Shown: in pieces, positions 28,292-46,702 of the stretch
Numbering within the stretch: position 1 is the stretch's first letter
Layout of the letters: each line of letters begins with the position of its first letter
NCBI RefSeq assembly: GCF_003319115.1
Contig: NZ_QOHF01000001.1
Span: 124,001 to 188,000 of the forward strand
DNA length: 64,000 nucleotides
Reading direction: 5' to 3'
From: Geodermatophilus sp. TF02-6
Lineage (GTDB): Bacteria; Actinomycetota; Actinomycetes; Mycobacteriales; Geodermatophilaceae
The notes under the pieces: model-generated
Told to the model about the DNA's origin: nothing
What the model saw: the letters and a program-made list of their open reading frames with translations, nothing else
Databases searched by the model: none
Position numbers and translations under genes: made by a program

Positions 28292-28392
28292 CCGCACTCC
28301 CTCCCGCGCACCGGTCCGGCGGCCGGCGCGCGACCGGCCGGCGACGGCGGACCGGAGGCGTATGGTGCCATCCCCGCGACAGGAGGACCGGC

Positions 28393-32632: not shown

Positions 32633-33820
32633 TCAGGCGGCGGCGAGGGCCTCGTCCCAGGTGACGCCGGCGCCGAGCAGCTTGCGGAACGCGATGGTGG
32701 GCCGCACCGCCCCGAACCCGACGACCCCCTGCAGGAGGCCGTCCCCGCCGGTCAGGGCCACGAAGTCGCCCGTCAGGTCGCCGTGCACCACCCGCAGCTC
32801 GTCCTGGGGACGCACCCGGCCGAAGACCTGCAGCCGCCCGTCGAGCTGCTCGGTCCACACGTAGGGCACCGCCTCGTGCACGGTCGGCGACCCGGTCAGG
32901 TTGGCCGCGGCGACCGTGGCCGTCTCCACGGCGTTGGTCCAGTGCTCGACCCGGACGTCCTCGCCGTAGCGCGGGTGGTACCAGCGGGCGACGTCGCCGA
33001 CGGCGTACACGCCCTCGGCGCCGCGCGCGGCCAGGTGCTCGTCGCACACCACGCCGTCGCGCAGGTCCAGCCCCGACCCGGTCAGCCAGCCGGTCTCCGG
33101 CGCCGCGCCCAGGCCCAGGACGACGACGTCGGCGGGCAGGGCCGACCCGTCGGTCAGCCGGACCGCGCTCACCCGCTCGGCGCCCTCGATGCCGGCGACC
33201 CCGGCGCCCAGGTGCAGGGCGACCCCCGCCGCGGCGTGCCGCCGGGTGAGGGCGGCGCCGACCTCCGGGCCCAGCCCGCGCACCATCAACGTCGGCAGCG
33301 GCTCGACGACGGCCACCTCCCGCCCGAGCCGGTGCAGCGTCCAGGCCACCTCGGCGCCGATGAACCCGCCGCCCACGACCACGACCCGGGCGCCGTCGGC
33401 GCCCGCCGCCCGGATCGCGGCGGCGTCGGCGGCGCCGCGCAGCTGGTACACGCCCGGCCGCGGCTCGAGGCCGGGCACCGACCGCGGTGTCGACCCGGTG
33501 GCGACCACCAGGGCGTCGAAGGGCAGCTCGTCGCCGCCGTGCAGCAGCACCCGGCGCGCGTCCAGGTCGAGGTCGGTGGCCCGTGCGGTCACCAGCCGCA
33601 CGTCCAGGCCGGCGAGGTCGGCGGCGGAGACCAGCGGGGGCGCGGGAGTCGCGGGGTCGGCGAGGAACTTCTTCGACAGCGGGGGGCGGTCGGTGGCCAC
33701 GCCGTCCTCGGCGCCCGGTTCGGCGCCCACGAGCACGACCTCGTCGGTGCTCCCCCGCCGGCGCAGCGCCTGCACGGTCCGGACGCCGGCCAGCGAGGCC
33801 CCCACCACCACGATCCGCAC
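32633..33820 (-). CDS. Ferredoxin reductase (FAD/NAD(P)H-dependent)
   Basis: A 395-residue flavoprotein of the oxygenase-coupled NAD(P)H ferredoxin reductase type (PdR/ThcD-like). The FAD motif is IVVVGASLAGVRTVQALR, the NAD(P) motif is RVVVVGGGFIGAEVAWTLHR, and the second FAD motif is GVYAVGDVARWYHPRYG. The family helper sequence DRPPLSKKFL is present. It ends with an acid-rich C-terminal domain. GTG at 33820 follows GGGAGGGA. It is the last gene of the leftward operon whose first gene encodes a 3Fe-4S ferredoxin, so the pair would carry electrons from NAD(P)H to the divergent P450s. Confidence 0.92.
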   Translation of the reverse strand: MRIVVVGASLAGVRTVQALRRRGSTDEVVLVGAEPGAEDGVATDRPPLSKKFLADPATPAPPLVSAADLAGLDVRLVTARATDLDLDARRVLLHGGDELPFDALVVATGSTPRSVPGLEPRPGVYQLRGAADAAAIRAAGADGARVVVVGGGFIGAEVAWTLHRLGREVAVVEPLPTLMVRGLGPEVGAALTRRHAAAGVALHLGAGVAGIEGAERVSAVRLTDGSALPADVVVLGLGAAPETGWLTGSGLDLRDGVVCDEHLAARGAEGVYAVGDVARWYHPRYGEDVRVEHWTNAVETATVAAANLTGSPTVHEAVPYVWTEQLDGRLQVFGRVRPQDELRVVHGDLTGDFVALTGGDGLLQGVVGFGAVRPTIAFRKLLGAGVTWDEALAAA

Positions 33821-33834
33821 GTCGTCCCTCCCGC

Positions 33835-34635
33835 TCAGGCGTCCGGCGGCGGGAACCGCGGGCGGCGCTTCTCCAGGAACGCCTGGGCGCCCTCGGCCAT
33901 GTCGGGGCTGCCGATGGCCTGCACGAGCATGCCCAGGCCGGTCGTGAAGGAGTCCCGGGCGGCGTTCCACCAGACGTTGGAGCTGACCTTGGCGATCTCC
34001 AGGTAGCGCGGGGAGAGGGCGGCCAGCTCGGCGACCAGCGCGTCGACCGCGCCCACCAGCTCGTCGTCGGGGACGACGGTGTTGACCAGGCCCAGCTCCA
34101 GCGCCTGGGCGGCGGTGTAGCGGCGGCAGAGGAAGGCCATCTCCTTGGCCCGCTTCTCGCCGATCTGCACCCCGAGCACGTTGGTGGCACCGGTGACCGG
34201 GGCGCTGCCCACCCGCGGGCCGGTCTGTCCGAAGGTCGCCGACTGCGCGGCGATGGCCAGGTCGCAGGCGATCACCAGCTCGTTGCCGCCGCCGGCGGCC
34301 GGGCCGTTGACCGCGGCGATCACCGGCCGCGGGTGGTTGCGGACCGCGTCGAACAGGCGCAGCGAGCCGCGGTAGAGCCCGCGCATGGTGGTGACGTCGG
34401 GCTCGGAGAGGGTGCCCAGCGCCCCGCCGGCGCAGAAGCTGCCCGGCACCCCGGTGATCACCACCGCCCGGCTCCGGGTGCTGCCGTCGAGGGCCGCGAC
34501 GAGCGCCTCGGCCATCTGCGGGTCGTAGGCGTTGCGCCGGTCGGGCCGGTTGAGCGTGATCCAGGTGGCGTCCCCGCGCTGGTCGACCAGGACGTCGTCC
34601 CCGAGGGTGGGGCCCCCCGCGGCCGGCTCAGCCAC
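33835..34635 (-). CDS. Crotonase-fold enzyme, MenB/BadI-like
   Basis: A 266-residue crotonase. The oxyanion-hole segments read SFCAGGALGTL and GPAAGGGNELVIACDLAIAA. The stretch FGQTGPRVGSAPVTGATNVL, then KRAKEMAFLCRRYTAAQALE and LGLVNTVVP, follows the MenB (naphthoyl-CoA synthase) and BadI (2-ketocyclohexane-carboxyl-CoA hydrolase) pattern. Ordinary enoyl-CoA hydratases carry a catalytic Glu at that place. MenB/BadI enzymes close or open carbocycles, so ring opening of a cyclic beta-keto acyl-CoA is a reasonable proposal. GTG at 34635 follows GGAGGAGG and overlaps the amidohydrolase stop by 8 bases. Confidence 0.85.
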   Translation of the reverse strand: MAEPAAGGPTLGDDVLVDQRGDATWITLNRPDRRNAYDPQMAEALVAALDGSTRSRAVVITGVPGSFCAGGALGTLSEPDVTTMRGLYRGSLRLFDAVRNHPRPVIAAVNGPAAGGGNELVIACDLAIAAQSATFGQTGPRVGSAPVTGATNVLGVQIGEKRAKEMAFLCRRYTAAQALELGLVNTVVPDDELVGAVDALVAELAALSPRYLEIAKVSSNVWWNAARDSFTTGLGMLVQAIGSPDMAEGAQAFLEKRRPRFPPPDA

Positions 34636-35464
34636 GCGGGGCCTCCTCCGCGACGAGCGGGCCGGGGGTGGGCGCGCCGAGGTCCCAGCCCATGAGCCGG
34701 GCGAAGTTGCCGCCGAGGATGCCGGCGGTGGTCTGCTCGTCGTAGCCGAGCCCCCGGACCGCGGCGATCTCCCGGCCCGGGTCGGCCATCGGCCAGTCCG
34801 AGCCGAACACGATCCGGTCGGCGCCGTGCCGGTCGACGATCGCGCGGACCCGCTCGGGCGCCAGCTCGGCCATCGTCGGCGGCCAGGAGGTCTCCAGGTG
34901 CACGTCCTCGCCGAGCAGCTCCTCCTCGGCCTCCTCCAGCCGGTGGTAGCCGCCGAAGTGGCAGGCGACCAGCCGCAGGTCGGGGAAGCGCCGGACGATG
35001 TCGCGGACCATCCGCGGCGTGGCCCGCTCGTTGCTCTCGGCGTCCCCGCCCCGGCCGACGTGCGCGATGACGGCGATGTCCGAGCCGAACGCCTCCAGCA
35101 GCTCCCACACCCGGGGGTCGTCGTAGGCGAACCCCTGGAACAGCGAGTGCAGCTTCACCCCGGGGATGCCGTTGCGGCGCAGCGAGGCGAGGTTGTCCTC
35201 GACCGGCAGGTCGGGGTGCACGGTGCCGAAGCCGTACAGCGGCCCACCGCGGGAGCGGGCCACGAACCGGTTGACGCCGTCGACGTACTTGGCGGTGTCG
35301 GCGATGCCCAGCAGGACGCCGCGGTCGACGCCGGCCCGCTCGAGCACGCCGGGCAGGGAGGAGATCTTCCCGTCGCCGACCCGGGGCAGCTGCGGCACCC
35401 GCGGCCCGAGGGCGCGCTCGGCGATGGCGTCGGGCCACGCGTGGCAGTGCACGTCGATGATCAC
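34628..35464 (-). CDS. Amidohydrolase-2 family (ACMSD-like) hydrolase/decarboxylase
   Basis: A 278-residue metal-dependent TIM-barrel protein. Likely ligands are HxH in IIDVHCHAWPD, the Lys region GVKLHSLF, His in VIAHVGRGGD, His in LVACHFGGYH and Asp in IVFGSDWPMADP. Family members decarboxylate (ACMSD, gamma-resorcylate decarboxylase) or hydrolyse ring compounds, lactones included. GTG at 35464 overlaps the SDR stop (GTGA). Context with a CoA-transferase, aldehyde dehydrogenase and MenB-like crotonase points to a step in carbocycle degradation. The exact reaction cannot be told. Confidence 0.88.
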   Translation of the reverse strand: MIIDVHCHAWPDAIAERALGPRVPQLPRVGDGKISSLPGVLERAGVDRGVLLGIADTAKYVDGVNRFVARSRGGPLYGFGTVHPDLPVEDNLASLRRNGIPGVKLHSLFQGFAYDDPRVWELLEAFGSDIAVIAHVGRGGDAESNERATPRMVRDIVRRFPDLRLVACHFGGYHRLEEAEEELLGEDVHLETSWPPTMAELAPERVRAIVDRHGADRIVFGSDWPMADPGREIAAVRGLGYDEQTTAGILGGNFARLMGWDLGAPTPGPLVAEEAPRG

Positions 35465-36234
35465 GGCTGCCCTCCGTCGACGGTGATGATGGAACCGGTG
35501 GTGAACGACGACCAGTCGCCGGCCAGGTACAGCGCCGTCCCGACGACCTCGGCCGGCTGACCGCCCCGGCGCAGCGCGAAGGTCGCCGCCCGCCGGGCGA
35601 AGGCGTCCATGTCCCAGGCGGCGGACACGTCGGTGAGGAAGGTGCCGCACATGATCGCGTTGACCCGCACCGTGGGTCCGAACGCGTGCGCCAGGCCGAC
35701 GGTCACCGCGTTGAGCCCGGCCTTGGCCGCGGCGTAGGGCACCACGTCGGCCCGCGGCCGGGCCGCCGCGGCGCTGGACACGTTGATGATCGAACCGCCG
35801 TCCCCGGCGGCCATCCGGGTGCCGATCAGCGCGGCCAACCGGAACGGGCCCTTGAGGTTGACCCCGATCACCTTGTCGAACAGCGCCTCGCTGACGTCGG
35901 CGACGGTGTCGTAGCGCGGCGACATCCCGGCGTTGTTGACCAGCACGTCGACCTGCCCGAACTCGGCGTAGGCGGCGTCCACGAGCCCGTCGAGGGCGTC
36001 CCAGCGGCCCACGTGCGCCGACACCGGCAGGGCACGCCGGCCGGTGGTCTCGCGCACCTCGGCGGCCGCCTTCTCGCAGCTGTCCAGGTCCCGGCTGGCG
36101 ATGACCACGTCGGCGCCGGCGGCGGCCAGGCCGAGCACCATCTCCCGCCCCAGCCCCCGGCTGCCGCCGGTGACCAGCGCGACCTTGCCCGCCAGGTCGA
36201 CGGAGGGGCCGGGTCGGCGCCCCGGCCCGGTCAC
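35461..36234 (-). CDS. Short-chain dehydrogenase/reductase
   Basis: A 257-residue classical SDR. It has the cofactor motif VALVTGGSRGLGREMVLGLA, DVLVNNAGMSPRY, the Ser in SIINVSSAAAARP and YxxxK in VPYAAAKAGLNAV. The C-terminus is GSIITVDGGQP. It would oxidise a secondary alcohol or reduce a ketone with NAD(P). GTG at 36234 overlaps the CoA-transferase stop and its own stop overlaps the amidohydrolase start, both GTGA junctions, so these three genes are translationally coupled. It lacks the RGQGR motif of the mycofactocin-type SDRs found elsewhere in the window. Confidence 0.93.
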   Translation of the reverse strand: MTGPGRRPGPSVDLAGKVALVTGGSRGLGREMVLGLAAAGADVVIASRDLDSCEKAAAEVRETTGRRALPVSAHVGRWDALDGLVDAAYAEFGQVDVLVNNAGMSPRYDTVADVSEALFDKVIGVNLKGPFRLAALIGTRMAAGDGGSIINVSSAAAARPRADVVPYAAAKAGLNAVTVGLAHAFGPTVRVNAIMCGTFLTDVSAAWDMDAFARRAATFALRRGGQPAEVVGTALYLAGDWSSFTTGSIITVDGGQP

Positions 36235-37487
36235 TCCGCCCACGCCGAGCTCAGCGTCCTGGCCGGCTTCGCGTCGCCGGTAGCGGAGGCGACGACGCCG
36301 TCGAGCGCGGCGATCTCGGCCGGCGACATCCCCAGGAGGTCGGCCAGGACGGCGTCGGTGTGCTCGCCGATCGCCGGGACGCCGCCGTAGAGCGGGCCGG
36401 CGTAGCTGCCCATGTGCAGCACCGGACCGGGCACGAGCACCCGGCCCAGCGCCGTCCCGGTGAGCTCGACCAGCGTGCGCTCGAGGAAGTGCGGGTCGGC
36501 GACGATGTCGCGGGCGTCGTTGACCGGGGCGGCGACGACCTCGTGCGCCTCGAGGTCGGCCAGCACCTCGTCGCGGGGCCGCTGGGCCACCCACGCCTTG
36601 ACGTGCTCCTGCAGCTCGTCGTTGTTGGCCATGCGGGCGACGTTCGTGGCGAACTTCGGGTCGTCCGTGAACTCCGGGCGGCCCATCGCCTCGAACAGCC
36701 GCAGCGCGATGGTCTGGTTGGACGCCGCGATGGACAGCCACCCGCCGTCGGCGGCCTGGTAGATGCCGCGGGGGGACGCCGCACCCGAGCCGTTGCCCAC
36801 CCGCTGCTGGACGTGGCCGGTGGCGGTGTAGTTGAGCACCAGGTCGCCGAGGATGAACATGAGCGGCTCGTACAGCGCCACGTCGACGACGTCCCCGCGG
36901 CCGGTGCGCGAGCGGTTGAACAGCGCCGTCGTCGTCCCGAACGCCGCCGACAGGCCGGCGATGGAGTCGGCGAAGCCGAACGGTGGCGACGTCGGCGGGG
37001 TGTCCGGCCAGCCGTTGACGTAGGCGTACCCGCTGGCGGTCTCGGCGACCGTGCCGAAGCCCGGCCGCTGCCGGTAGGGCCCGGTCTGCCCGAACCCGGA
37101 CACCCGGGCGAGCACCAGCCCCGGGTTGTCGGCGGACAGGACGTCGTAGCCCAGCCCCCAGTCCTCCAGCCGGCCGGGCCGGAAGGACTCCACGACGACG
37201 TCGACCCGGGCGGCCAGCCGGCGGACCAGGTCGCGCCCCTCCGGCCGGCGCAGGTCGATGCCGATCGACTCCTTGCCCGCGTTGAGCCGGGCGAAGCCGA
37301 TGGAGAGCCCCTCGTGGTGCGGGGTCCACTGGCGGGCGAAGTCGCCGGTCCCCGGGTCCTCGACCTTGACCACCCGCGCGCCGAAGTCCCGCAGCATCCG
37401 CCCCGCGGTCGGCGCGGCGTACATGGTGCCCAATTCCAGGACGGTGACCCCCGCCAACGGCGGGGCGCCTCCTGCGGTGCCGGTCAT
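36231..37487 (-). CDS. CaiB/BaiF family CoA-transferase
   Basis: A 418-residue class III CoA-transferase moving CoA between an acyl-CoA and a free acid. The N-terminal fold reads GVTVLELGTMYAAPTAGRML and GARVVKVEDPGTGDFAR. The catalytic Asp is probably in PPFGFADSIAGLSAAFGTTT, and YEPLMFILGD and GWLSIAASNQ follow the family. ATG at 37487 follows GGGGAGA. It is coupled to the SDR downstream and lies 17 bases after the aldehyde dehydrogenase stop. Together they suggest aldehyde to acid to CoA ester conversion. Confidence 0.94.
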   Translation of the reverse strand: MTGTAGGAPPLAGVTVLELGTMYAAPTAGRMLRDFGARVVKVEDPGTGDFARQWTPHHEGLSIGFARLNAGKESIGIDLRRPEGRDLVRRLAARVDVVVESFRPGRLEDWGLGYDVLSADNPGLVLARVSGFGQTGPYRQRPGFGTVAETASGYAYVNGWPDTPPTSPPFGFADSIAGLSAAFGTTTALFNRSRTGRGDVVDVALYEPLMFILGDLVLNYTATGHVQQRVGNGSGAASPRGIYQAADGGWLSIAASNQTIALRLFEAMGRPEFTDDPKFATNVARMANNDELQEHVKAWVAQRPRDEVLADLEAHEVVAAPVNDARDIVADPHFLERTLVELTGTALGRVLVPGPVLHMGSYAGPLYGGVPAIGEHTDAVLADLLGMSPAEIAALDGVVASATGDAKPARTLSSAWAE

Positions 37488-37504
37488 CGTCTCCCCCTGC
37501 CCGG

Positions 37505-39031
37505 TCACGGCCGCCACTGCACGTGCTGCGGCTCGAGGTACTCGCGGATGCCCCACTCGCCGATCTCCCGGCCGACCCCGGAGAGCCCGAAGCCGCCGAA
37601 GGGCGCGTCGGGGCGCATGTTGCCGCCGCCGTTGACCCACACCGTCCCGGCGCGGATCCGCGCGGCCAGTGCCCGGCCGTGCTCCACGTCGGGGGTGTAG
37701 ACGTTGGCCGCCAGCCCGTAGGCGGTGTCGTTGGCCAGCCGGACCGCCTCCTCCTCGGTGGCGAAGGGGACGACGACGCCGACCGGCCCGAACACCTCGT
37801 TCTGCACCAGCCGGTTGTCGTGCGGCAGGCCGGCGAAGACCACGGGGTTGACGAAGTACCCCCGGTCCGGCACCGGCGCGTCCAGGGAGAGCACGATCTC
37901 GCCGCCGTCGGCCAGCGCGTCGTCGATGAACCCCTGGACCCGGGCCCGGTGGTCCTCGCGGATCATCGGCCCGATGTTGACGCCGCGGTCCCAGGGGTCG
38001 CCGACCTTGAGCGCGGTGAACGCGTCCTTGGACGCGGCGAGGAACTCGTCGACCAGGCTCTCGTGCACCAGCATCCGGGCCAGCGCGGCGCAGCCCTGGC
38101 CGCCGTTGCGGGCCCAGCGCAGGTGGATGTCGCGGGCCAGCCCGGCGGCGTCCACGCCGGGCAGCAGGATGTTCGGCGACTTGCCGCCGAGCTCCAGGGT
38201 GACGCCCTTCAACCCGCGGGCGGCCTGCTCCATGATCCGGGCGCCGACCGCGTCCGACCCGGTGAAGGACACCCGGTCGACGCCGGGGTGGGTGGTCAGG
38301 TGCTGCCCGACGGACGGCCCGTCGCCGATCACGACGTTGAGGACGCCGTCGGGGATGCCCGCCTCGCGGAAGAGCTCGCCCATCCACAGCGTGGTCAGCG
38401 GCGTGCGCGGGGAGGGCAGCAGCACCGCGGTGCACCCGGCGGCGAGGGCGGCGCCGAACTTGAAGACCGCCAGGTTGATCGGGTAGTTGTAGCCGGTGAT
38501 GCAGGCCACCACGCCGGCCGGCCGGTAGGCCACCTCGGAGTAGCTGAGCACCGGGTCGTGCCAGGCGCCGAGCTGCACGGTGCGGTCGACCAGCGCCGCC
38601 TCGGCCTGCCAGCGCAGGTGGGCGATCCCCAGCTTCACCTGCATGACCTCGGCGAAGGCGGCGGGGGTGCCGACCTCGTTGACGATCGAGGCGGTCAGCC
38701 GCTCGGTGTGGGCCGCGAAGACGTCGGCGAGCCGGGAGATCGCCGCGCTGCGCTCCTGCGGGCTGGCCGCCGCCCAGGCCGGGAACGCCCGCCGGGCGGC
38801 GGCGACGGCCCGGTCCACCTGCTCGATCGTGGCGGTGGGCACGGTCGCGGTCACCTGCTCGGTGGCCGGGTTGACCGCCTCGACGGCCGGCCCCTCGCCG
38901 GGGACCAGCCGGCCGTCGACGAGCAGCTCGCGGGTGCCGGGGACCCAGGTCCGCAGGTCGGTGCCGGTGGTGTCGGTGCTGGTCGTGTCGGTGCTGGTCG
39001 TGTCGGTGTTGGCCGTGTCGGTGCCGGTCAT
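37505..39031 (-). CDS. Aldehyde dehydrogenase with a Thr/Asp repeat N-terminus
   Basis: A 508-residue NAD(P)-dependent aldehyde dehydrogenase. The catalytic Glu is in GVTLELGGKSPNILL and the nucleophile Cys in RNGGQGCAALARMLV. The cofactor region is GVVACITGYNYPINLAVFKF, and EVFGPVGVVVPF is near the C-terminus. Residues 5-25 consist of a pentapeptide repeat TDTTS made by a 15-base tandem DNA repeat. This tail is not part of the enzyme fold and might be length-variable. The ATG at 39031 lies one base after the CitE-like gene stop. It would oxidise the aldehyde made by the P450 and SDR route to an acid. Confidence 0.93.
   Translation of the reverse strand: MTGTDTANTDTTSTDTTSTDTTGTDLRTWVPGTRELLVDGRLVPGEGPAVEAVNPATEQVTATVPTATIEQVDRAVAAARRAFPAWAAASPQERSAAISRLADVFAAHTERLTASIVNEVGTPAAFAEVMQVKLGIAHLRWQAEAALVDRTVQLGAWHDPVLSYSEVAYRPAGVVACITGYNYPINLAVFKFGAALAAGCTAVLLPSPRTPLTTLWMGELFREAGIPDGVLNVVIGDGPSVGQHLTTHPGVDRVSFTGSDAVGARIMEQAARGLKGVTLELGGKSPNILLPGVDAAGLARDIHLRWARNGGQGCAALARMLVHESLVDEFLAASKDAFTALKVGDPWDRGVNIGPMIREDHRARVQGFIDDALADGGEIVLSLDAPVPDRGYFVNPVVFAGLPHDNRLVQNEVFGPVGVVVPFATEEEAVRLANDTAYGLAANVYTPDVEHGRALAARIRAGTVWVNGGGNMRPDAPFGGFGLSGVGREIGEWGIREYLEPQHVQWRP
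38970..39029. repeat. Four 15-base tandem repeats in the aldehyde dehydrogenase start
   Basis: GTGTCGGTG(C/T)(T/C)GG(T/C)C occurs four times head to tail, directly after the ATG (reverse strand). Unit length keeps the frame, so slippage changes only the number of TDTTS repeats. Two units are identical. Confidence 0.85.
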
Positions 39032-39032
39032 G

Positions 39033-39968
39033 TCAGTGGCCCCCTTCGGGTGCGTCGATGCCGAGCGCGTCTGCCGGCGCCGGACCGCCGCCGCCGGGCA
39101 GGGCGCGGGCGTGGGCCAGCCACTCGCGGGCGGTGTCGACGTGCGCCTTGTCGATGTGCACGCCGCGGTAGCGGACCGCGCCGGACCCCTCGGCCGCGGC
39201 GCGCTCGTAGGCGGCGACGAGGCCTTCGTGGAAGGCGACGTCCTCGGCCGACGGGGTGAAGGCGTCGTTGACCACCGGCACGTGGCCGGGGTGGATGACG
39301 ACCATGCCGCGGAAGCCGAGCTGGCGGCCGTGCTCGGCGAACGCCGCGAGCCCGGCCAGGTCGTCCAGCCGCTCCCACAGCCCGGTGAGCGGGTGGATGC
39401 CGGCCTCCCGGCAGGCCAGCAGGACGCGGCTGCGCAGGTAGAGGGTCTCCTCCCCCTCCGGCGTCCACCGGTAGCCGACCGCGCGGGCGATGTCGGCGTG
39501 CTCGGCGGTCGGCCCGATCATCGCGCCCACCCGCGGGGAGGCCTGCGCGATCTCCCGGGCGTCCTGGATGGCGCCGATCGTCTCGACCGGGACGATGTAC
39601 TCCAGGCCGGAGACGCCGTTGCGGTCCTCGAAGTGGTCCAGCAGCGCGTCGTAGCGGAGGACGTCGGTGGCCGCGCCCACCTTGGGTGCGAAGACGCCGG
39701 TCAACCCGGGGACGACGACGGCCTCGAGGTCCGCGCCGGTCGTCCGGGTGTCCAGCGGGTTGACCCGGACGAACAGCCCGACCCGGGGCTCCGCCCGGCG
39801 GACCGCCCGGATCGAGTCGGCCACGGTCCGCCGCGCCCCCTCCTTGAGGTCGGCGGGCACCGAGTCCTCGAGGTCGAGCACGACGCAGTCGGCGCCGGCG
39901 GACAGCGCCTTGTCGACCCAGGCCGGCTTGTGGCCGGGGACGAAGAGGACGGTGCGGTACGGGACCAT
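39033..39968 (-). CDS. HpcH/HpaI-CitE family aldolase/CoA-ester lyase
   Basis: A 311-residue TIM-barrel lyase of the CitE-like type. It opens with VPYRTVLFVPGHKPAWVDKA and contains CVVLDLEDSVP, the catalytic region VRVNPLDTRTTGADLEAVV, metal-binding Glu in IVPVETIGAIQDAREIA, and GAMIGPTAEHADIARA. Members split beta-hydroxy or malyl/citramalyl-CoA-type esters into two fragments. ATG at 39968 follows GTGGAG. It sits between the CoA ligase and aldehyde dehydrogenase genes. It could cut a chain-end product, giving acetyl-CoA, pyruvate or glyoxylate and an acid or aldehyde. Confidence 0.9.
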   Translation of the reverse strand: MVPYRTVLFVPGHKPAWVDKALSAGADCVVLDLEDSVPADLKEGARRTVADSIRAVRRAEPRVGLFVRVNPLDTRTTGADLEAVVVPGLTGVFAPKVGAATDVLRYDALLDHFEDRNGVSGLEYIVPVETIGAIQDAREIAQASPRVGAMIGPTAEHADIARAVGYRWTPEGEETLYLRSRVLLACREAGIHPLTGLWERLDDLAGLAAFAEHGRQLGFRGMVVIHPGHVPVVNDAFTPSAEDVAFHEGLVAAYERAAAEGSGAVRYRGVHIDKAHVDTAREWLAHARALPGGGGPAPADALGIDAPEGGH

Positions 39969-40023
39969 CAGCGGCGCTCCACCGTCAGCAGCCGGGCAGC
40001 GGGGCGGTCCACGACCCTGCCCC

Positions 40024-41682
40024 TCAGCGGGCGCCGGCCGGCGCCGGGGCGGCCAGCCGGTCGTGGGTGTCCGCGGTGACCCCGGCCGCCCGCAGCTGCG
40101 CCTTCTGCACCTTCTCCGAGGGTGTCTTGGGCAGCGCGTCGACGAACCGCAGGAACCGGGGGGTGGCGAAGGCGGGGATCCGGCCCTCGCACCAGGCCCA
40201 CAGCTCGGCGGGGTCGACGGAGCGGTCGGTGACGACGTAGGCCATGACCTCGTCCTCACCGGCCTCGGACTCGGCGGCGACGGCGACGACGGCGCACTCG
40301 ACCACGGCGTCGTGGCCGAGCAGCCCCTGCTCCACCTCGTAGGAGCTGATGTTCTCCCCGCGCCGGCGCAGCGCGTCCTTGTACCGGTCGACGAAGTAGA
40401 ACCAGCCGTCGGCGTCCCGGCGCAGCGCGTCGCCGGTGTGGAACCACAGGTTGCGCCAGGCCTCGACGGTCTTCTCCGGCATGCCGAAGTACCCCAGCGA
40501 GCAGGTCCACGGGTGCCGCGGGCGGACGACGAGCTCGCCCACCTCGCCGACCGGCACCTCGCGGTCGGTGTCGGGGTCGACCAGCCGGACGTCGAACCAG
40601 TCGGCGGCCTGCAGCCCGGCGGCCCCGGCGGGCCGGTCCTCGCCGTAGGGCGACAGGATCGGCGCGCTGGTCTCGGTCAGCCCGAAGACCTCGGTGAACG
40701 CCTCGATGGCGAACCGCTCCTTGAAGCCGGCGAGGATCGAGGTCGCCGTGGGCGCCGCGAAGACCGTGCGCAGCACGTTGTCGGCGTCGTCCGGGCGGGC
40801 CGGGGACTTCCAGATGAAGTCCATCATCACGCCGATGAGGTTGGTGGCCGTGACGCCGGAGGCGCGCAGGTGGTCGACCCAGCGGCTGGCGGAGAAGCGC
40901 GGCCGGCAGACCAGCCGGGCGCCGGCGATGAGCGCCGGGTAGGCGGCCATGAACTGGGCGTTGCCGTGGAACAGCGGCGTGCAGGTGAAGTAGACGTCGT
41001 CCGGGGTCAGCCGCTGCAGGCTGACCACCTCCTGGCCGAAGAAGTACATCTGCGCGTGCGGCATGGCCACGCCCTTGGAGGGCCCGGTCGTCCCGGAGGT
41101 GAAGAAGATCGAAGCCAGCGCGTGGGGTGGCGGCGGGTCCGAGCGCGCCCCCGGCCGGGCGCCGCGGGCCAGCTCCTCCCACGGCTCGGCCGTCCAGCCG
41201 GCGTCCCGCAGCAGCCGCAGGGCCTCGGCCCGGCTGCCGGTGTCGACGACCCAGAACGCCTCGACGACCCGCGCGGACTCGCCGAGGACGACGAACTTGG
41301 CCGCCTGCACGTCGTCGACCACCGCCCACCGCGGAGCCGCGGTGACCAGCTGGTGTTCCAGGAAGACGCCCTCGTAGGCGGTGTTGACCGGCACCTCGAC
41401 CGTGCCGCCGACGCCCGTGCCCAGCCAGGTCCGCAGGAACTGGGAGGAGTTGGCGGCCATGACCAGGACGCGGTCCCCCGGGGCGGCACCCGCCTCGGCC
41501 AGCCGGTCGGCGACCGACTCGGCCTGCTGCAGCGACTCGGCGTAGGTGAGGGTGAGCCCCTCCTCCGGCAGGTCGAGGAAGACCGCGTCCGGGCGGGAGG
41601 CGGCCTGGTGCCGCAGCACCGCGGCCAGCGTCCAGTCCCCCTGGTCGTGGAAGGCGGGTACCAGCTCCGTGTAGGTCCGCAT
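40024..41682 (-). CDS. AMP-dependent acyl-CoA ligase (CaiC-like)
   Basis: A 552-residue acyl-CoA synthetase activating a carboxylic acid with ATP and CoA. The P-loop motif is FFTSGTTGPSKGVAMPH, followed by EVFGLTETSAPILSPYGE, the hinge motif FYFVDRYKDALRRRGENISS and the C-terminal catalytic Lys in KTPSEKVQKAQL. ATG at 41682 follows AGGAGG. The substrate type is not evident. It precedes the CitE-like gene, and a palindrome (41720-41742) lies before it in the 135-base gap to the ferredoxin gene, so it may have its own promoter. Confidence 0.93.
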   Translation of the reverse strand: MRTYTELVPAFHDQGDWTLAAVLRHQAASRPDAVFLDLPEEGLTLTYAESLQQAESVADRLAEAGAAPGDRVLVMAANSSQFLRTWLGTGVGGTVEVPVNTAYEGVFLEHQLVTAAPRWAVVDDVQAAKFVVLGESARVVEAFWVVDTGSRAEALRLLRDAGWTAEPWEELARGARPGARSDPPPPHALASIFFTSGTTGPSKGVAMPHAQMYFFGQEVVSLQRLTPDDVYFTCTPLFHGNAQFMAAYPALIAGARLVCRPRFSASRWVDHLRASGVTATNLIGVMMDFIWKSPARPDDADNVLRTVFAAPTATSILAGFKERFAIEAFTEVFGLTETSAPILSPYGEDRPAGAAGLQAADWFDVRLVDPDTDREVPVGEVGELVVRPRHPWTCSLGYFGMPEKTVEAWRNLWFHTGDALRRDADGWFYFVDRYKDALRRRGENISSYEVEQGLLGHDAVVECAVVAVAAESEAGEDEVMAYVVTDRSVDPAELWAWCEGRIPAFATPRFLRFVDALPKTPSEKVQKAQLRAAGVTADTHDRLAAPAPAGAR

Positions 41683-41719
41683 GGGCCCCTCCTGTTCGCG
41701 AGCTGTCCCCGCCCAACTA

Positions 41720-41742
41720 TCCATGCACATGTTTCGCATGGA
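41720..41742. promoter_or_regulatory. Inverted repeat upstream of the CoA ligase gene
   Basis: TCCATGC-N9-GCATGGA, perfect 7-base arms, 38 bases before the ligase ATG. Its reverse strand reads GAAACATGTGCATGG, similar to the sites at 31329 and 42084. Confidence 0.5.
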
Positions 41743-41817
41743 CCCCCGGGACGTCAAGCACTTCGGCGGGTGCGGCGACGGACGGCCCGGGGGAGCAGCC
41801 CACGCCCGCCGCGGGGG

Positions 41818-42030
41818 TCAGACGTCGGCGGGCTCGGAGTCGTGCACGCTGATCGCCCGCTCGGGACAGCTGTCGGCCGCCAGCTGGGCGTCGGCCTCGA
41901 GCTCGGCCGGCACCGGGTCCACCTGGACGATGGCGTGGCCGTCCTCCTCGTCCAGCGCGAAGACGTCCGGAGCGGTCATGTGGCAGACGCCGTGCCCCTG
42001 GCAGACGTCCAGGTCGACAGAGACGCGCAT
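41818..42030 (-). CDS. 3Fe-4S ferredoxin of P450 type
   Basis: A 70-residue ferredoxin. The cluster ligands are CxxHxxC (VCQGHGVCHM) and a distal Cys-Pro (DSCPERAI). The His at the second position marks the actinobacterial single-cluster 3Fe-4S ferredoxins that feed cytochromes P450. The acidic surface (DEEDG, ELEAD) suits partner docking. ATG at 42030 is followed by RVSVDLDVCQGHG, the normal start. It is divergent from the P450 gene across a shared promoter region and heads the leftward operon that ends with a ferredoxin reductase. Confidence 0.95.
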   Translation of the reverse strand: MRVSVDLDVCQGHGVCHMTAPDVFALDEEDGHAIVQVDPVPAELEADAQLAADSCPERAISVHDSEPADV

Positions 42031-42072
42031 CGCTCCCCCTCGGGTCGGCCGCGCCCGGGGCGCACCCGAGCG

Positions 42073-42102
42073 TTGACAGGTCCAAAACAGGATAAGCATC
42101 AT
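42073..42102 (+). promoter_or_regulatory. Promoter with an operator-like motif before the P450 gene
   Basis: TTGACA (42073-42078), an 18-base spacer, then CATCAT (42097-42102). AAAACAGGATAAGCAT (42084-42099) lies in the spacer and matches 14 of 16 bases of the element at 31329-31344, so a repressor could act here. Confidence 0.5.
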
Positions 42103-42142
42103 CACACATGATCGAGGCCACGGAGACGAGCGAGGACCACTC

Positions 42143-43420
42143 ATGACCGCTGAGCGCCGCTGCCCGGTCGTCCACTTCGACCACCACTCGCAGGAGCACG
42201 CCGACGACCCGGCCGGGGCCTACCGCCGGCTGCGGACCACCTCCCCGGTCGCCTGGAGCGACGCCCACGGCGGCTTCTGGGTGCTGTCGAGCTACGACGC
42301 GGTCTTCGAGGCCGCGCGCGACGACGACGTCTTCTCCTCGCAGCGGCTGGACCAGTACGGCGGCCCGGGGCTGTCGGTGGTCATCCCGAAGACGCCCATG
42401 CACAAGCACATCCCGATCGAGCTCGACCCGCCGGAGTTCCGCAGCTTCCGCAAGGTGGTCAACCCGATCGCCTCCCCCGCCGCGGTGGAGAAGGTCGAGG
42501 ACATGATCGTCAAGTGGACGACGTGGTTCATCGACGAGCTCATCGAGAGCGGTGACGCCGACCTCGCCCAGGTCATCGGCGTCCCGTCGATCGTCACCAT
42601 CGACTGGCTGGGCCTGCCGGTCGAGCACTGGCAGGTCTACGCCCGGTCGCACCAGGCCACGCTGGCCGAGCCCACCGACAGCCCGGTCTACAAGCAGGCC
42701 GTCGAGGTCGACCTGCCGTGGTGCTCCGAGCAGATGCGCGAGACCATCTCCGCCCGCAAGGCCGAGCCGCGCGACGACGTCATCAGCTACCTGGTGCACT
42801 CCGAGGTCGACGGGCGGCCGATCACCGAGGAGGAGACCTTCTCCATCGTCGAGCTGCTCATCAGCGGCGGCGTGGGGACGACGGCCTCGCTGGTGAGCCA
42901 GACGCTCGTGTGGCTCTACCAGCACCCCGACGTCCGCCAGGAGCTGATCGACGACCCCTCCTTGGTCGACCGGGCGCTGGAGGAGTTCCTGCGCTACTTC
43001 TCCCCCACGCAGGCGCTGGCCCGCACCGTGATCGGGGAGACCGAGTTCCACGGCTGCCCGGTCTCGGTGGGCGACCGCGCGCTGCTGTCGTGGTCCTCGG
43101 CGAACCGGGACCAGACCCAGTTCGACGACCCCGACGAGGTGGACATCCACCGCTGGCCGAACCGGCACCTGGCCTTCGGCGTCGGCATCCACCGCTGCGC
43201 GGGTTCTCACCTGGGCAAGCGGATGGCCAAGGAGATGCTGCGTCAGGTGCTCGAGCGCATGCCCGACTACGTCGTGGACGTGTCGGCGCTGAAGCGCTAT
43301 CCCCGGCAGGGGGTCAACACCGGGTGGCAGCGCATCCCGGCCACCTTCACCCCGGGGAAGCGCCGGCTGCCGCCGGGCGCGGTGCCCGAGGGCGTCTCGG
43401 CGGCGGCCGCGCGCTCCTGA
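42143..43420 (+). CDS. Cytochrome P450 monooxygenase (first)
   Basis: A 425-residue bacterial class I P450. The heme loop is FGVGIHRCAGSHLGK with the cysteine ligand. The I-helix reads ELLISGGVGTTASLVS, giving oxygen-binding GGVGTT, and the K-helix ExxR is EEFLR. The length is typical. It would hydroxylate an unactivated carbon using electrons from the adjacent 3Fe-4S ferredoxin. The ATG at 42143 follows GAGGA. It heads the rightward operon, with a mycofactocin-type SDR and a second P450 after it. I cannot assign a CYP family from the sequence alone. Confidence 0.95.
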   Translation: MTAERRCPVVHFDHHSQEHADDPAGAYRRLRTTSPVAWSDAHGGFWVLSSYDAVFEAARDDDVFSSQRLDQYGGPGLSVVIPKTPMHKHIPIELDPPEFRSFRKVVNPIASPAAVEKVEDMIVKWTTWFIDELIESGDADLAQVIGVPSIVTIDWLGLPVEHWQVYARSHQATLAEPTDSPVYKQAVEVDLPWCSEQMRETISARKAEPRDDVISYLVHSEVDGRPITEEETFSIVELLISGGVGTTASLVSQTLVWLYQHPDVRQELIDDPSLVDRALEEFLRYFSPTQALARTVIGETEFHGCPVSVGDRALLSWSSANRDQTQFDDPDEVDIHRWPNRHLAFGVGIHRCAGSHLGKRMAKEMLRQVLERMPDYVVDVSALKRYPRQGVNTGWQRIPATFTPGKRRLPPGAVPEGVSAAAARS

Positions 43421-43493
43421 CCGCACGACCACCCGACTAGACACAGCCACCCGACTAGAGCAGCCCGAGCGAGCAACCTGGAGGGGATCGACC

Positions 43494-44333
43494 ATGGCAG
43501 GACGCATGGCAGGCAAGGTCGCGTTCGTCACCGGCGCCGCGCGCGGGCAGGGGCGCAGCCACGCGGTCCGGCTGGCCCAGGAGGGCGCCGACATCATCGC
43601 GGTCGACATCTGCGCCGACATCGACACGGTGACGCCGTACTACCCGCTGGCCACCGAGGAGGAGCTGGCCGAGACGGTCAAGGAGGTCGAGGCGCTCGAC
43701 CGGCGGATCGTGGCGCGGAAGGCCGACGTCCGCGACCTGGCCGGGCTGCAGGCCGCCTTCGACGCGGGCCTGGCCGAGCTGGGCCGCGTCGACACCGTCG
43801 TCGCCAACGCCGGCATCGCCACCTACGGCCGGGCGTGGGAGCTCACCGGCGAGCAGTGGAAGGACATGATCGACGTCAACCTGACCGGCGTCTTCCACAC
43901 GGCCAAGGTGGCGATCCCGGCGATGATCGAGGCCGGCCGCGGCGGCTCGATCCTGTTCACCAGCTCCATCGGTGGTCTCAAGGGGATCCAGAACGTCGGG
44001 CACTACGTCGCCTGCAAGCACGGCATCGTCGGCCTGATGCGGACCCTGGCCAACGAGCTGGGGCCGTACTCGATCCGGGTCAACACCATCCACCCGACCA
44101 ACGTCGACACCATCATGATCCAGAACCCCGGCACCTGGGCGATGTTCTCCCCCGGCGACCCGGAGCCCAGCCAGGAGAAGGCGATGCCGGGGTTCCTGTC
44201 GCTGAACACGCTGCCCGTGCCCTGGGTCGAGCCGGTCGACATCAGCAACGCGGTGCTCTTCCTGGCCAGCGACGAGGCCCGCTACGTCACCGGCGTGACC
44301 TTCCCGGTCGACGCCGGCGCCTACGTCAAGTGA
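43494..44333 (+). CDS. Mycofactocin-type SDR dehydrogenase
   Basis: A 279-residue SDR with the motif VAFVTGAARGQGRSHAVRLA characteristic of the mycofactocin-coupled SDR subfamily, in which NAD stays bound and electrons pass to the peptide cofactor mycofactocin. The catalytic residues are Ser in LFTSSIGGLKG and YxxxK in HYVACKHGIVG. The C-terminus YVTGVTFPVDAGAYVK fits. ATG at 43494 follows GGAGGGGA. Lying between two P450 genes, it likely oxidises the alcohol made by one of them. Mycofactocin biosynthesis genes are not in the window. Confidence 0.93.
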   Translation: MAGRMAGKVAFVTGAARGQGRSHAVRLAQEGADIIAVDICADIDTVTPYYPLATEEELAETVKEVEALDRRIVARKADVRDLAGLQAAFDAGLAELGRVDTVVANAGIATYGRAWELTGEQWKDMIDVNLTGVFHTAKVAIPAMIEAGRGGSILFTSSIGGLKGIQNVGHYVACKHGIVGLMRTLANELGPYSIRVNTIHPTNVDTIMIQNPGTWAMFSPGDPEPSQEKAMPGFLSLNTLPVPWVEPVDISNAVLFLASDEARYVTGVTFPVDAGAYVK

Positions 44334-44343
44334 GGACGGTCCG

Positions 44344-45600
44344 ATGACCACGCTGAACCCCCCGACGCCGGACATCCTCTCGCCGGAGTTCATCGACGAC
44401 CCGTACCCCTTCCACCGGGTGCTGCGCGACCACCACCCGGCCGTCTACCACGAGGCCACGCAGAGCTGGTTGATCAGCCGCTACGCCGACGTCGCCGGCG
44501 CGTTCCGGAACCCGGCCTTCTCCAGCCGCAACTACGACTGGCAGCTCGAGCCGATCCACGGGCGGACGATCCTGCAGATGGAGGGCAAGGAGCACGCCAC
44601 CCACCGGGCGCTGCTCAACCCGTTCTTCCGGGGCAAGGGGCTGGAGGCCTTTCTGCCGGTCATCACGCGCAACGCCGCGGAGCTGGTGGACGGGGTGGTG
44701 CGGCGGGCCGGCGGCGAGCTGATCGACGGCATCGCCGGCCGTGGCCGGGCCGACCTGGTCGCCGAGTTCACGACGTGGTTCCCGATCAACGTCATGGTCG
44801 ACATGCTCGGCCTGCCCAGGAGCGACCACGAGCGGTTCCACCGCTGGTACCACTCGATCATGGCGCACCTGAACAACCTCGCCGGCGACCCGGCGGTCAC
44901 CGCCCGGGCCGACCAGACGCGCGAGGAGCTGCGCGAGTACGTGCTGCCGATCATCCGCGAGCGCCGCGACGGGGACGGCGACGACCTGCTCTCCCGCCTG
45001 TGCCGCGCCGAGGTCGACGGTCAGCGGATGTCCGACGAGGAGATCAAGGCGTTCGTCAGCCTGCTCCTGGTCGCCGGTGGCGAGACCACCGACAAGGCGA
45101 TCGCCAGCATGGTCCGCCAGCTCCTCGACCACCCCGAGCAGATGGCCGAGGTGCGGGCCGACCGGAGCCTGGCCGACGCCGTCATCGCCGAGACGCTGCG
45201 GCACTCCGGCCCGGTGCACATGATCATGCGCCAGACCGAGGAGGAGGTGGAGGTCTCCGGGACGACGATCCCGGCCGGCGCCACCTGCATCCTGATGCTC
45301 GCTGCGGCCAACCGCGACGAGCGGCACTTCCGCGACCCGGACACCTTCGACGTCCACCGGCCCGACCTCGACGTGGCGAAGGCGTTCAGCGGCGCGGCCA
45401 ACCACGTCCAGTTCATCCTGGGCCGGCACTTCTGCGTCGGCTCGCTGCTGGCCCGCACCGAGATGACCGTCGCGCTCGACCTCGTCCTCGACCGGCTGCC
45501 GAACCTCCGGTACCAGGAGGGCTTCGTCCCGCACGAGGCGGGCCTCTACACCCGCAGCGTCCCCCGCCTGCTGGTCGAGTTCGACGCCTCGGCCGGCTGA
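44344..45600 (+). CDS. Cytochrome P450 monooxygenase (second)
   Basis: A 418-residue P450. Heme loop: FILGRHFCVGSLLAR. The Cys and the FxxGxHxC spacing are intact, although the usual Gly after Phe is Ile. The I-helix has LLVAGGETTDKAIASM (GGETT) and the ExxR is ETLRH. It lies 10 bases after the SDR stop with GAGGA before the ATG, so it belongs to the same operon. Its low similarity to the first P450 (different heme loop and N-terminus) indicates a separate substrate or position rather than a duplication. Confidence 0.94.
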   Translation: MTTLNPPTPDILSPEFIDDPYPFHRVLRDHHPAVYHEATQSWLISRYADVAGAFRNPAFSSRNYDWQLEPIHGRTILQMEGKEHATHRALLNPFFRGKGLEAFLPVITRNAAELVDGVVRRAGGELIDGIAGRGRADLVAEFTTWFPINVMVDMLGLPRSDHERFHRWYHSIMAHLNNLAGDPAVTARADQTREELREYVLPIIRERRDGDGDDLLSRLCRAEVDGQRMSDEEIKAFVSLLLVAGGETTDKAIASMVRQLLDHPEQMAEVRADRSLADAVIAETLRHSGPVHMIMRQTEEEVEVSGTTIPAGATCILMLAAANRDERHFRDPDTFDVHRPDLDVAKAFSGAANHVQFILGRHFCVGSLLARTEMTVALDLVLDRLPNLRYQEGFVPHEAGLYTRSVPRLLVEFDASAG

Positions 45601-45643
45601 CGTCGGCCGGTTCCCCGACCCCGCACGAGAGGTGGGCCCAGCC

Positions 45644-46702
45644 ATGACGACATCCTCGGTACGACGGCGGTCGACGGGCACCGTCCTGGGTGTCGCGGCG
45701 GCCGCCGGCCTCCTCGTCCTGCTCACCGGCCTCCCGGGCCGGGCCCAGCCCGCGGATCCGTCGTCCGGGAGCCCCACCGAGGTCGTCGCGACCCCGTGGA
45801 TCCGCGGCATCCTCGGCGCCCCGGCCGAGGGGGCACCGCCACCGGTCCCGGAGGGTCCCGCCTTCACGCCCGACGGCGACCTCGTCTTCGTCAGCGCCTT
45901 CGGGGACGCCGAGGGCAACAAGGTCTACGAGGTGGACCTGGACACCAAGCAGGTGAGGCCGCTGTACGGCGATGACACGAGCGTGATCGCCTCGCTCGAC
46001 GTCGCCGCGGACGGGCGCTTCTACCTGTCGGACTACAACGGCGGACCCGGCGGATCAGGACGGATCCTCACGATGGCCCCCGACGGGACCGACGTGCGCA
46101 CCCTGATCGACGCCTTCGAGGGCACGCCCATCTACCCGGACGACCTGGTGATGGACGGCGACGGCGGGTTCTTCTACACCGACATGCAGGGCAACGTCCT
46201 GGAGCCCACGGGGCGGGTCGTCCACGTGGACGCGTCCGGAGCGCAGACCCTCGTCAGCGGCGGGCTGGCCCACCCCAACGGCATCGCCCTCAGCCCGGAC
46301 GGCTCGCGCCTGTGGGTGAGCGAACACCTCGCCAACCGGCTGCTGACCTTCGACCTCGACGAGTCCGGCGTCGCCGTCGACGAGTGGGCACCCGGCACGG
46401 GTGTGAGCGTGTACGCGCACTACAGCGGCGGGCTGGCGGACTCTCTCACGGTCGACGCCGCCGGCAACGTGTACCAGGCGATGTACTTCGGTGGGCGTGT
46501 CGAGGTGTTCGACAGCTCCGGCAACCCGGTCGCCACGGTTCGGCCGGAGGGGAACGGTCCGGAGCAGTTCCCGACCACGACCAACGTGGCGATCCGGCCG
46601 GGCACGCGGGAGGCCTACCTCACCGCCGGCGGGCCGGAGGGGATCTCGATCCTGAGGTTCACCGCACTCGCCGACGCGCTGCCGCCGGTCTGGGAGGGGT
46701 GA
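45644..46702 (+). CDS. Secreted SMP-30/gluconolactonase-like beta-propeller protein
   Basis: A 352-residue exported protein. The signal peptide has an Arg-rich start (SSVRRRSTG), a hydrophobic core (VLGVAAAAGLLVLLTGLPG) and a probable cleavage site near GRAQPA. The mature part is a beta-propeller of the SMP-30/lactonase kind, with FTPDGDLVFVSAFGD, IYPDDLVMDGDGGFFYTDMQ, LAHPNGIALSPDGSRLWVSE and ADSLTVDAAGNVYQAMYFGG as blades and likely metal-binding Asn/Asp. ATG at 45644 is chosen over GTG at 45632 because GAGAGG precedes it. As the last gene of the P450 operon it could hydrolyse a lactone outside the membrane. Confidence 0.86.
   Translation: MTTSSVRRRSTGTVLGVAAAAGLLVLLTGLPGRAQPADPSSGSPTEVVATPWIRGILGAPAEGAPPPVPEGPAFTPDGDLVFVSAFGDAEGNKVYEVDLDTKQVRPLYGDDTSVIASLDVAADGRFYLSDYNGGPGGSGRILTMAPDGTDVRTLIDAFEGTPIYPDDLVMDGDGGFFYTDMQGNVLEPTGRVVHVDASGAQTLVSGGLAHPNGIALSPDGSRLWVSEHLANRLLTFDLDESGVAVDEWAPGTGVSVYAHYSGGLADSLTVDAAGNVYQAMYFGGRVEVFDSSGNPVATVRPEGNGPEQFPTTTNVAIRPGTREAYLTAGGPEGISILRFTALADALPPVWEG

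Follow-up and report, generated by a model that had tools for sequence, protein, structure and literature searches.

A candidate P450-initiated catabolic island in Geodermatophilus sp. TF02-6 and its conserved core in actinobacteria

Large natural pools of carbon exist as cyclic terpenoids and alicyclic acids, and to our knowledge few complete aerobic routes for their degradation are known. Limonene and carveol are degraded by Rhodococcus erythropolis DCL14 via hydroxylation, carveol dehydrogenase, an enone reductase, a Baeyer-Villiger monooxygenase (BVMO) and a lactone hydrolase (PMC4097962). A second source outlines the chc route, in which a P450, a 4-hydroxy dehydrogenase and two KstD-like desaturases lead to 4-hydroxybenzoate, and the bad-ali route for cyclohexanecarboxylate (PMC9795900). 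These were the nearest described logics found for the locus studied here, a gene island of Geodermatophilus sp. TF02-6 that begins in a 64,000-nucleotide stretch of contig NZ_QOHF01000001.1 (positions 124,001 to 188,000, forward strand; hereafter the window). A sequence-only reading of the window had proposed a catabolic gene cluster at positions 32633-46702, with a P450 electron-transfer chain and ring-opening genes, possibly acting on an alicyclic or terpenoid compound.

The central genes of this locus are co-inherited. The core P450 (P450a) was found in 10 of 98 genomes and the core crotonase (ECH) in the same 10 (joint occurrence, naive p 7e-14 with shared ancestry ignored), up to 18 first-look candidates per genome being scored for P450a and up to 26 for ECH. 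The CitE-like lyase (CitE) was found in those 10 genomes and as one 52% match in a further genome (G091). The amidohydrolase (AHase) had 11 carriers including the genome of origin, namely the same 10 and, with a 52% match, G022. A scan of named genomes for P450a gave 68 loci: 10 at 75% or above, 29 at 57-75% (termed distant) and 29 outgroup loci. Within 10 kb on each side of the distant loci (thresholds set after the locus data had been viewed; plasmid loci L033-L035 excluded), ferredoxin (Fdx) was detected at 26, ferredoxin reductase (FdR) at 22, ECH at 16, acyl-CoA dehydrogenase (ACAD) at 12, acyl-CoA ligase (CoAlig) and the MaoC-type hydratase MaoC2 at 11 each, CitE at 9 and the mycofactocin-type short-chain dehydrogenase/reductase (SDR) mSDR at 8. 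Around the outgroup loci FdR was detected twice, mSDR three times and the others not at all. Of the 29 distant loci, 20 had their genomes tested as a whole, and all 20 genomes have ECH and CitE. The order CaiB-ALDH-MaoC2-CitE-ACAD (ALDH, aldehyde dehydrogenase; CaiB, class III CoA-transferase) is conserved in eight Geodermatophilaceae relatives, Thermobifida fusca and Rhodococcus ruber.

The core thus consists of P450a, ferredoxin, ECH and CitE and is co-inherited across actinobacteria, with carriers in Geodermatophilus, Blastococcus, Prauserella, Nocardioides, Kribbella, Rhodococcus, Gordonia and T. fusca. It is usually joined by a CoA ligase and the CaiB-ALDH-MaoC2-CitE-ACAD block, and often by a Liv ABC transporter. 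An expanded version adds mycofactocin-type SDRs, an NDMA-type alcohol dehydrogenase (ADH), a CypX-like P450 (P450b), more CoA ligases, KstD-like dehydrogenases, an esterase and a BVMO of the phenylacetone monooxygenase (PAMO) type. A chance neighbourhood was rejected, as the core genes are co-inherited near and far, and the proposal of a coherent catabolic unit stands. In the P450a tree, Prauserella, Nocardioides and Saccharopolyspora each appear in at least two places, which suggests transfer, with several inner branches weakly supported. An 85% P450a in Geodermatophilaceae gene order was also seen in a metagenome-assembled genome labelled Thermomicrobiales (L040), probably by a binning error. 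In G022 (L011, L030, L031) the 52% amidohydrolase is accompanied by ACAD, SDR, thiolase and crotonase genes, with no orthologues of P450a, ECH or CitE; this set is perhaps a stand-alone lower-pathway module.

We favor reading the island as a pathway that a P450 initiates on an alicyclic, probably terpenoid-type compound; its mycofactocin-linked steps would be optional and its end module RipB/RipC-like. In our judgment the case for this reading is evenly balanced. P450a, receiving electrons via FdR and a 3Fe-4S-type ferredoxin, would hydroxylate the alicyclic compound or acid. The alcohol would be oxidized, in a mycofactocin-dependent manner in the expanded version, a CoA ligase would activate the acid, and the ring would be opened by a retro-Claisen or Baeyer-Villiger step. 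A branched semialdehyde could then be oxidized by ALDH and activated by the CaiB CoA-transferase. For the final cut, dehydrogenation by ACAD, hydration by the RipB-like MaoC2 and retro-aldol cleavage by the RipC-like CitE may release an alpha-keto acid or ketone and an acyl-CoA. A wider proposal is more tentative, and we regard it as possible rather than probable: that this is a widespread new actinobacterial pathway for alicyclic terpenoids (or derived acids) with new core chemistry, namely a P450 without the I-helix acid, ring opening by ECH without the BadI Asp and Tyr, and a CaiB-ALDH-MaoC-CitE-ACAD block removing a methyl branch. In many hosts such a pathway would be linked to the mycofactocin-dependent oxidation of alcohols and to PAMO-type monooxygenases, and would thereby supply the latter with a natural role. 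P450-initiated alicyclic catabolism is a known kind of system; the gene combination and the two enzyme clades are new as far as could be searched. No description of the cluster or its gene order was found in the open-licence literature searched, and protein searches of annotated plasmids yielded no characterized pathway with the same order. The earlier impression that this is not a recognized standard pathway is consistent with these searches; conserved synteny with a characterized pathway, named in that reading as grounds for refutation, did not turn up within their scope.

The closest solved matches of P450a were CYP125, CYP142, P450cin and P450cam, in sequence search and fold search alike; the model has a mean pLDDT of 80.3, with low values at 73-94 and 341-351. 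In P450s, an acid before the Thr of the I helix forms the usual acid-alcohol pair. This canonical pair is absent from the P450a clade: all 43 rows read GG(V/T)(G/A)TT, with Gly or Ala in place of the acid and the Thr kept, while outgroup rows have D or E at this position (clade support 100/99). The Fdx cysteines at 10, 16 and 55 lie in a CxxHxxC...CP pattern, three Cys with His at the fourth position, a motif that fits the proposed 3Fe-4S type. Orthologues of P450b with 74-78% identity occur in Rhodococcus aetherivorans, R. ruber and Thermocrispum municipale.

ECH is closest to MenB, and it had been proposed as a MenB/BadI-like ring-opening enzyme. Its score to the BadI profile TIGR03210 is 165.7 bits, below the curated cut-off of 467.6. 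Where BadI has V-D-P, the window ECH and 27 of 27 orthologue rows have A/S-P-V, and a two-residue gap removes the Tyr; the rows are at least 55% identical, with some genes included twice. Asp and Tyr, which we presume to be catalytic at these positions, are kept in three of three BadI-annotated plasmid copies and were also read from MenB chains. Ring opening of the BadI/MenB kind by ECH was therefore rejected on residues and score. In AHase the metal ligands H6, H8, K104, H135, H169 and D223 are invariant in 12 of 12 rows, in agreement with the HxH, Lys, His, His, Asp set that we take to be the Amidohydro_2 metal-ligand pattern. A fold search with its model (pLDDT 88.6) returned decarboxylases (IDCase, ACMSD, 5-carboxyvanillate decarboxylase), pyrone-dicarboxylate hydrolases and LigJ at 13-20% identity; AHase is predicted to be a decarboxylase or hydrolase. 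Malyl-CoA lyase is among the closest solved chains for CitE.

Several island enzymes are linked to mycofactocin. The three SDRs mSDR, mSDR2 and mSDR3 (352.8 bits) all pass the TIGR03971 cut-off (other scores in Table 1), so the assignment of a mycofactocin-type SDR holds, and the best matches of mSDR were mostly chains named carveol dehydrogenase by their depositors. The island ADH, outside the window, matches the NDMA-dependent alcohol dehydrogenase model TIGR03989 with 526.9 bits (cut-off 440). The genome of origin encodes mftC, the one mft gene searched (G000:C22:7991-9004, 658.2 bits, cut-off 265). Among the 20 distant carriers, 15 have mftC; an ADH orthologue (E <= 1e-140) was found in 10 of these 15 and in none of the five without mftC (p 0.016).

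The island extends well beyond the region first described. Loci of ten relatives were fetched around the amidohydrolase (37-38 kb, but 32 kb where one contig was short), and the window proteins were mapped to them. Of the 34 genes called between 31350 and the right end of the window, 29 have an orthologue in one or more of these loci; the exceptions are those at 45644, 47222, 51071, 53721 and 59997. The conserved set runs on past the right window edge. The right flank (extended coordinates 64001-83797) encodes the Liv ABC transporter, a lactonase-like gene, MaoC2, a second CitE (CitE2), ACAD, an MFS transporter, an amidohydrolase, SnoaL-like proteins, OYE, ALDH2, the NDMA-type ADH, an HSL esterase and, at the right island end, the BVMO (L032:18121-19797), which scores 645 bits to PAMO. 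The island therefore covers about 52 kb (extended coordinates ~31.3-83.8 kb), and positions 32633-46702, taken earlier as a complete unit, are its middle and about a quarter of it.

The gene order is partly peculiar to this strain. Of the ten relatives whose loci were fetched, six have FdR next to Fdx; these are the six other Geodermatophilus carriers, and in them the ECH-AHase-SDR-CaiB-ALDH-MaoC2-CitE-ACAD-CoAlig block lies ~13-17 kb from FdR-Fdx. In the other relatives, G037 and G044 have the block and no FdR beside Fdx or elsewhere in the fetched stretch, G083 has a 39% FdR downstream of P450a, and G022 lacks P450a. In TF02-6 the ECH-to-CoA-ligase block, minus MaoC2 and ACAD, lies between FdR and Fdx; MaoC2 and ACAD, which in relatives are part of the block, are found ~30 kb to the right together with CitE2. 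The divergent two-operon arrangement reported earlier is thus present here, but as a strain-specific rearrangement; two divergent operons were rejected as a conserved architecture. These copies of MaoC2, CitE2 and ACAD are 83, 79 and 85% identical to proteins of other actinobacteria, versus 63, 63 and 76% for Geodermatophilus; being closer to the former, they show the island to be a mosaic.

Genes were called with a codon-usage gene caller, and families were assigned by Pfam and curated NCBIfam profile scans of the window proteins (Table 1). All thirteen genes named for 32633-46702 were confirmed, with intact frames and the families as given. Most were said to overlap by GTGA/ATGA; this is wrong, since overlaps occur at just 4 of the 11 same-strand junctions (8, 4, 4 and 13 bp). 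For the secreted SMP-30 lactonase-like gene at 45644, the ten fetched loci contain no counterpart; it was rejected as a pathway gene and is probably outside the pathway.

Table 1. Features of the island within the window, including the promoter-like box.
Feature	Coordinates	Strand	Evidence or remark
MFS transporter, left edge of the island	31350-32552	+	PF07690; 59-73% orthologues near P450a in Geodermatophilaceae loci
FdR, ferredoxin reductase of the P450 chain	32633-33820	-	PF07992 + Reductase_C
ECH, core crotonase, own clade	33835-34635	-	PF00378
AHase, Amidohydro_2 metal-dependent hydrolase or decarboxylase	34628-35464	-	PF04909
SDR dehydrogenase	35461-36234	-	NF005559 219.5 bits, above cut-off 215
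CaiB, class III CoA-transferase	36231-37517	-	PF02515; succinate-glutarate type 247.5 bits, below cut-off 750
ALDH, aldehyde dehydrogenase	37505-39031	-	PF00171; kept between CaiB and MaoC2 in relatives
CitE-like C-C lyase, malyl/citramalyl-CoA type	39033-39968	-	PF03328; RipC 117.3 bits, below cut-off 375
CoAlig, acyl-CoA ligase	40024-41682	-	PF00501/PF13193; orthologues adjoin ECH or ACAD in relatives
Fdx, ferredoxin, CxxHxxC...CP (3Fe-4S type)	41818-42030	-	PF13370
Promoter-like palindromic box GATAAGCATcATC (consensus GATAAGCATTATC), divergent Fdx/P450a intergenic region	42089-42105	+	
P450a, core P450, GGVGTT without I-helix acid	42143-43420	+	PF00067
mSDR, mycofactocin-type SDR, carveol-dehydrogenase group	43506-44333	+	TIGR03971 413.2 bits, cut-off 300
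P450b, CypX-like P450, expanded version	44344-45600	+	TIGR04538 305.3 bits, below cut-off 500; 3nc3
SMP-30 lactonase-like, secreted	45644-46702	+	Family scan
SnoaL-like protein	48065-48475	+	PF13577; >60% in 8/10 relatives' loci
mSDR2, mycofactocin-type SDR	48549-49373	-	TIGR03971 392.8 bits
CoAlig2	49515-51068	+	PF00501; 88-92% in 8 relatives' loci
u51868 and MaoC pair, 3' of CoAlig2	51868-52781	+	PF01575 in the second gene, none in the first; pair conserved
4HBT thioesterase-like and EthD-domain proteins	52859-53646	+	PF13279, PF07110
mSDR3, SnoaL2, ECH2, CoAlig3	54695-58282	-	Family scans; conserved in relatives
KstD1 and FADox, FAD_binding_2 dehydrogenases, 3-ketosteroid/4-oxocyclohexanecarboxylate dehydrogenase type; accessory	58296-61712	-	
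PNPOx-like (+), SDR4 (-), SnoaL3 (-)	61864-63619	mixed	Orthologues in some relatives
LivF, end of gene	63784-64000	-	Remaining Liv ABC transporter beyond window

Among the remaining genes, u51868 (51868-52356, 162 aa, no family match) lies between CoAlig2 and MaoC in the loci of all eight Geodermatophilaceae carriers, and may supply the other half of a two-subunit hydratase. The SnoaL-like protein at 48065 also matches PF00866, the small subunit of ring-hydroxylating dioxygenases, with 32.3 bits; no large subunit was seen. At least five SnoaL-like small proteins are encoded on the one island (window 48065, 55549 and 63152; L032:10876 and 15209). To the left of the island, window positions 22924-30180 encode a sugar ABC transporter, a LacI regulator, a thiolase and trehalase-like genes, apparently unrelated to it. 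No tRNA was found within the window.

The promoter-like box of the Fdx/P450a intergenic region follows the carriers of the core. In Geodermatophilaceae carriers except G083 this region has TTGACA followed by the consensus box, from which the window copy differs by one mismatch. Searched genome-wide with at most one mismatch, the box was found in 7 of 7 genus carriers, where it lies before P450a, in 0 of 19 genus non-carriers and in 0 of 35 other genomes; one genus non-carrier has a site with two mismatches. At two mismatches there were 8 stray sites in all, and a reversed control pattern gave 6 matches in 61 genomes. Three of the seven genus carriers have a second copy, with one mismatch, ahead of the MFS gene, and weaker copies occur in others; before the window's own MFS gene none was found at up to 4 mismatches of 17. 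No regulator domain was detected among the island genes scanned with Pfam. The T. fusca cluster has one GntR-FCD gene and one FCD-domain gene.

Versions of the locus were found in other hosts. In T. fusca NBRC 14071, one contig carries OYE (59%), CoAlig, ECH, SDR, AHase, Liv genes and CaiB-ALDH-MaoC2-CitE-ACAD and stops within Fdx; a second contig has the apparent amino end of Fdx, then P450a and FdR. The T. fusca BVMO (646.3 bits) is encoded on a further contig (L134, 14.15 kb) and, because of this score, is probably PAMO itself. Around it are an OYE (52%), an esterase (42%), two CaiB genes, a ferredoxin (45%) and a P450 stretch (39%); this setting is related to the island, not orthologous to it, and is a possible clue to the natural role of PAMO. 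R. ruber NBRC 15591 has a version spread across ~53 kb, with three P450a-like matches, P450b, KstD1, BVMOs and the lyase operon; a BVMO and an esterase lie near its P450a cluster. That the T. municipale cyclohexanone monooxygenase belongs to the cluster was unsupported: the cluster BVMO scores 584 bits to the island BVMO, and a 548-bit copy on another contig would, judging from the scores, fit the solved enzyme (548.0 bits). Some Rhodococcus megaplasmids have loci that pair a P450 of 33-34% with a crotonase of 43-44%; these were set aside as a different pathway, given their Rieske, fumarylacetoacetate-hydrolase and luciferase-like genes. Two such loci are L033 and L034, and the L033 crotonase also has the shared PV.G and WWN motifs.

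Several observations weigh against the proposed pathway. Every step rests on sequence comparison. P450a is only ~25-31% identical to the listed solved P450s, among which sterol P450s score equally high, and the terpenoid inference is therefore weak. Scores to RipB/RipC, ChcB1/ChcC1 and BadI are all far under the curated cut-offs (for RipB, MaoC2 122.6 versus 340; for RipC, CitE 117.3 and CitE2 112.7 versus 375), and ECH lacks two residues found in BadI-annotated copies and MenB. The T. fusca cluster contigs have SDRs of only 30-34% and no KstD1 or BVMO match, and at E <= 1e-100 a BVMO is missing in 5 of the 20 distant carriers; such genes are therefore not essential and BVMO, present in 15 of 20, is not core. 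mSDR (at least 50%) is found near distant loci yet also near the three outgroup loci noted above, and all 26 genomes searched within the genus have mftC, whether or not they are carriers, so that it is uninformative there. G022 has an amidohydrolase but no P450a. The presence counts are raw, ignoring shared ancestry, and cover a set number of candidates per genome. An alicyclic or terpenoid substrate, as first proposed, nevertheless stays the best guess, given the solved P450s closest to P450a and the chains closest to mSDR, most of them named carveol dehydrogenase.

The strongest alternative is a monocyclic-monoterpenoid route like limonene/carveol degradation in DCL14, which we consider unlikely. 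The best matches of mSDR, mostly named carveol dehydrogenase, the OYE, PAMO-type BVMO and HSL-type esterase on the extended island, the BVMO and esterase near the R. ruber P450a cluster and the OYE of the T. fusca cluster contig all speak for it. However, the T. fusca cluster contigs have no BVMO or esterase match, a quarter of the distant carriers have no BVMO at the threshold used, OYE has no counterpart in the ten fetched loci, and the likeness is one of described steps and enzyme families. A beta-oxidation of the bad-ali type, in which CoA ligase, acyl-CoA dehydrogenase, hydratase and SDR steps lead to BadI hydrolysing a 2-ketocyclohexanecarboxyl-CoA, is improbable: the CoA ligase, ACAD, SDR and a crotonase with some score to BadI are in the core, but this score is far under the cut-off and the Asp and Tyr positions are changed throughout the ECH rows, as described above. 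Aerobic aromatisation of the cyclohexanecarboxylate (chc) type is distinctly improbable. KstD1 and FADox match ChcC1/ChcC2 and mSDR matches ChcB1, but far below the cut-offs (KstD1 450.5 versus 1000 bits for ChcC1 and 296.7 versus 900 for ChcC2; mSDR 158.6 versus 400), KstD1 was found in 2 of the 10 relatives' loci and FADox (>60%) in none, and the T. fusca cluster contigs have no KstD1.

A cluster that degrades or modifies steroids or sterol derivatives would account for the resemblance of P450a to CYP125/CYP142, the KstD-like dehydrogenases and a BVMO near steroid monooxygenase; it is highly improbable, as KstD1 is outside the conserved core and the Pfam scan of the island genes, the set searched, gave no large-subunit Rieske oxygenase or extradiol-dioxygenase domain. 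Least probable of all is a biosynthetic or tailoring cluster, suggested by the resemblance of P450b to CypX and to the cyclodipeptide-synthase-associated P450 model (below cut-off). Against it stand the many CoA-degradation enzymes and importers, and the scanned genes include no core biosynthetic enzyme such as a synthase of cyclodipeptides, terpenes or polyketides.

PAMO-type Baeyer-Villiger enzymes are used in biocatalysis, and we know of no natural substrate for them. If the P450-initiated alicyclic pathway proposed here is correct, it would place mycofactocin-type dehydrogenases, and perhaps PAMO-type enzymes, in a natural setting; the P450 that lacks an I-helix acid and the crotonase that lacks the BadI residues would open new subjects for mechanistic study. 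The core occurs in cultured T. fusca and other tractable hosts, making the substrate question directly testable.

Of the closest known systems, the DCL14 route shares with the extended island, by description, the oxygenase, carveol-type SDR, OYE, BVMO and hydrolase families; however, the island's core is P450-Fdx-ECH-CitE with BVMO as an accessory, and it adds a RipB/RipC-like module and KstD-like enzymes. With the chc route of Sinomonas the island has in common a P450 system followed by an SDR and KstD-like dehydrogenases, but the island's KstD-like genes are optional and low-scoring, and a CoA-dependent lyase module replaces aromatisation. The bad-ali route likewise has a CoA ligase, acyl-CoA dehydrogenase, SDR and a crotonase of the MenB/BadI group; the island differs in its crotonase without the BadI Asp and Tyr, a P450 system in the core and a CitE end. 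The P450cin, P450cam and CYP142 systems are similar in fold and are the best sequence matches, but at the low identity given above, with the I-helix acid replaced by Gly or Ala in the island and a ferredoxin that is of the 3Fe-4S type by motif. Like the itaconate degradation module (CoA-transferase, RipB/Ich, RipC/Ccl) and the end steps of the ethylmalonyl-CoA pathway, the island combines a CoA-transferase, a MaoC-type hydratase and a CitE-type lyase, here in one conserved block; it differs in that the CoA-transferase is a class III CaiB, scores lie under the cut-offs, and ACAD and ALDH are built in.

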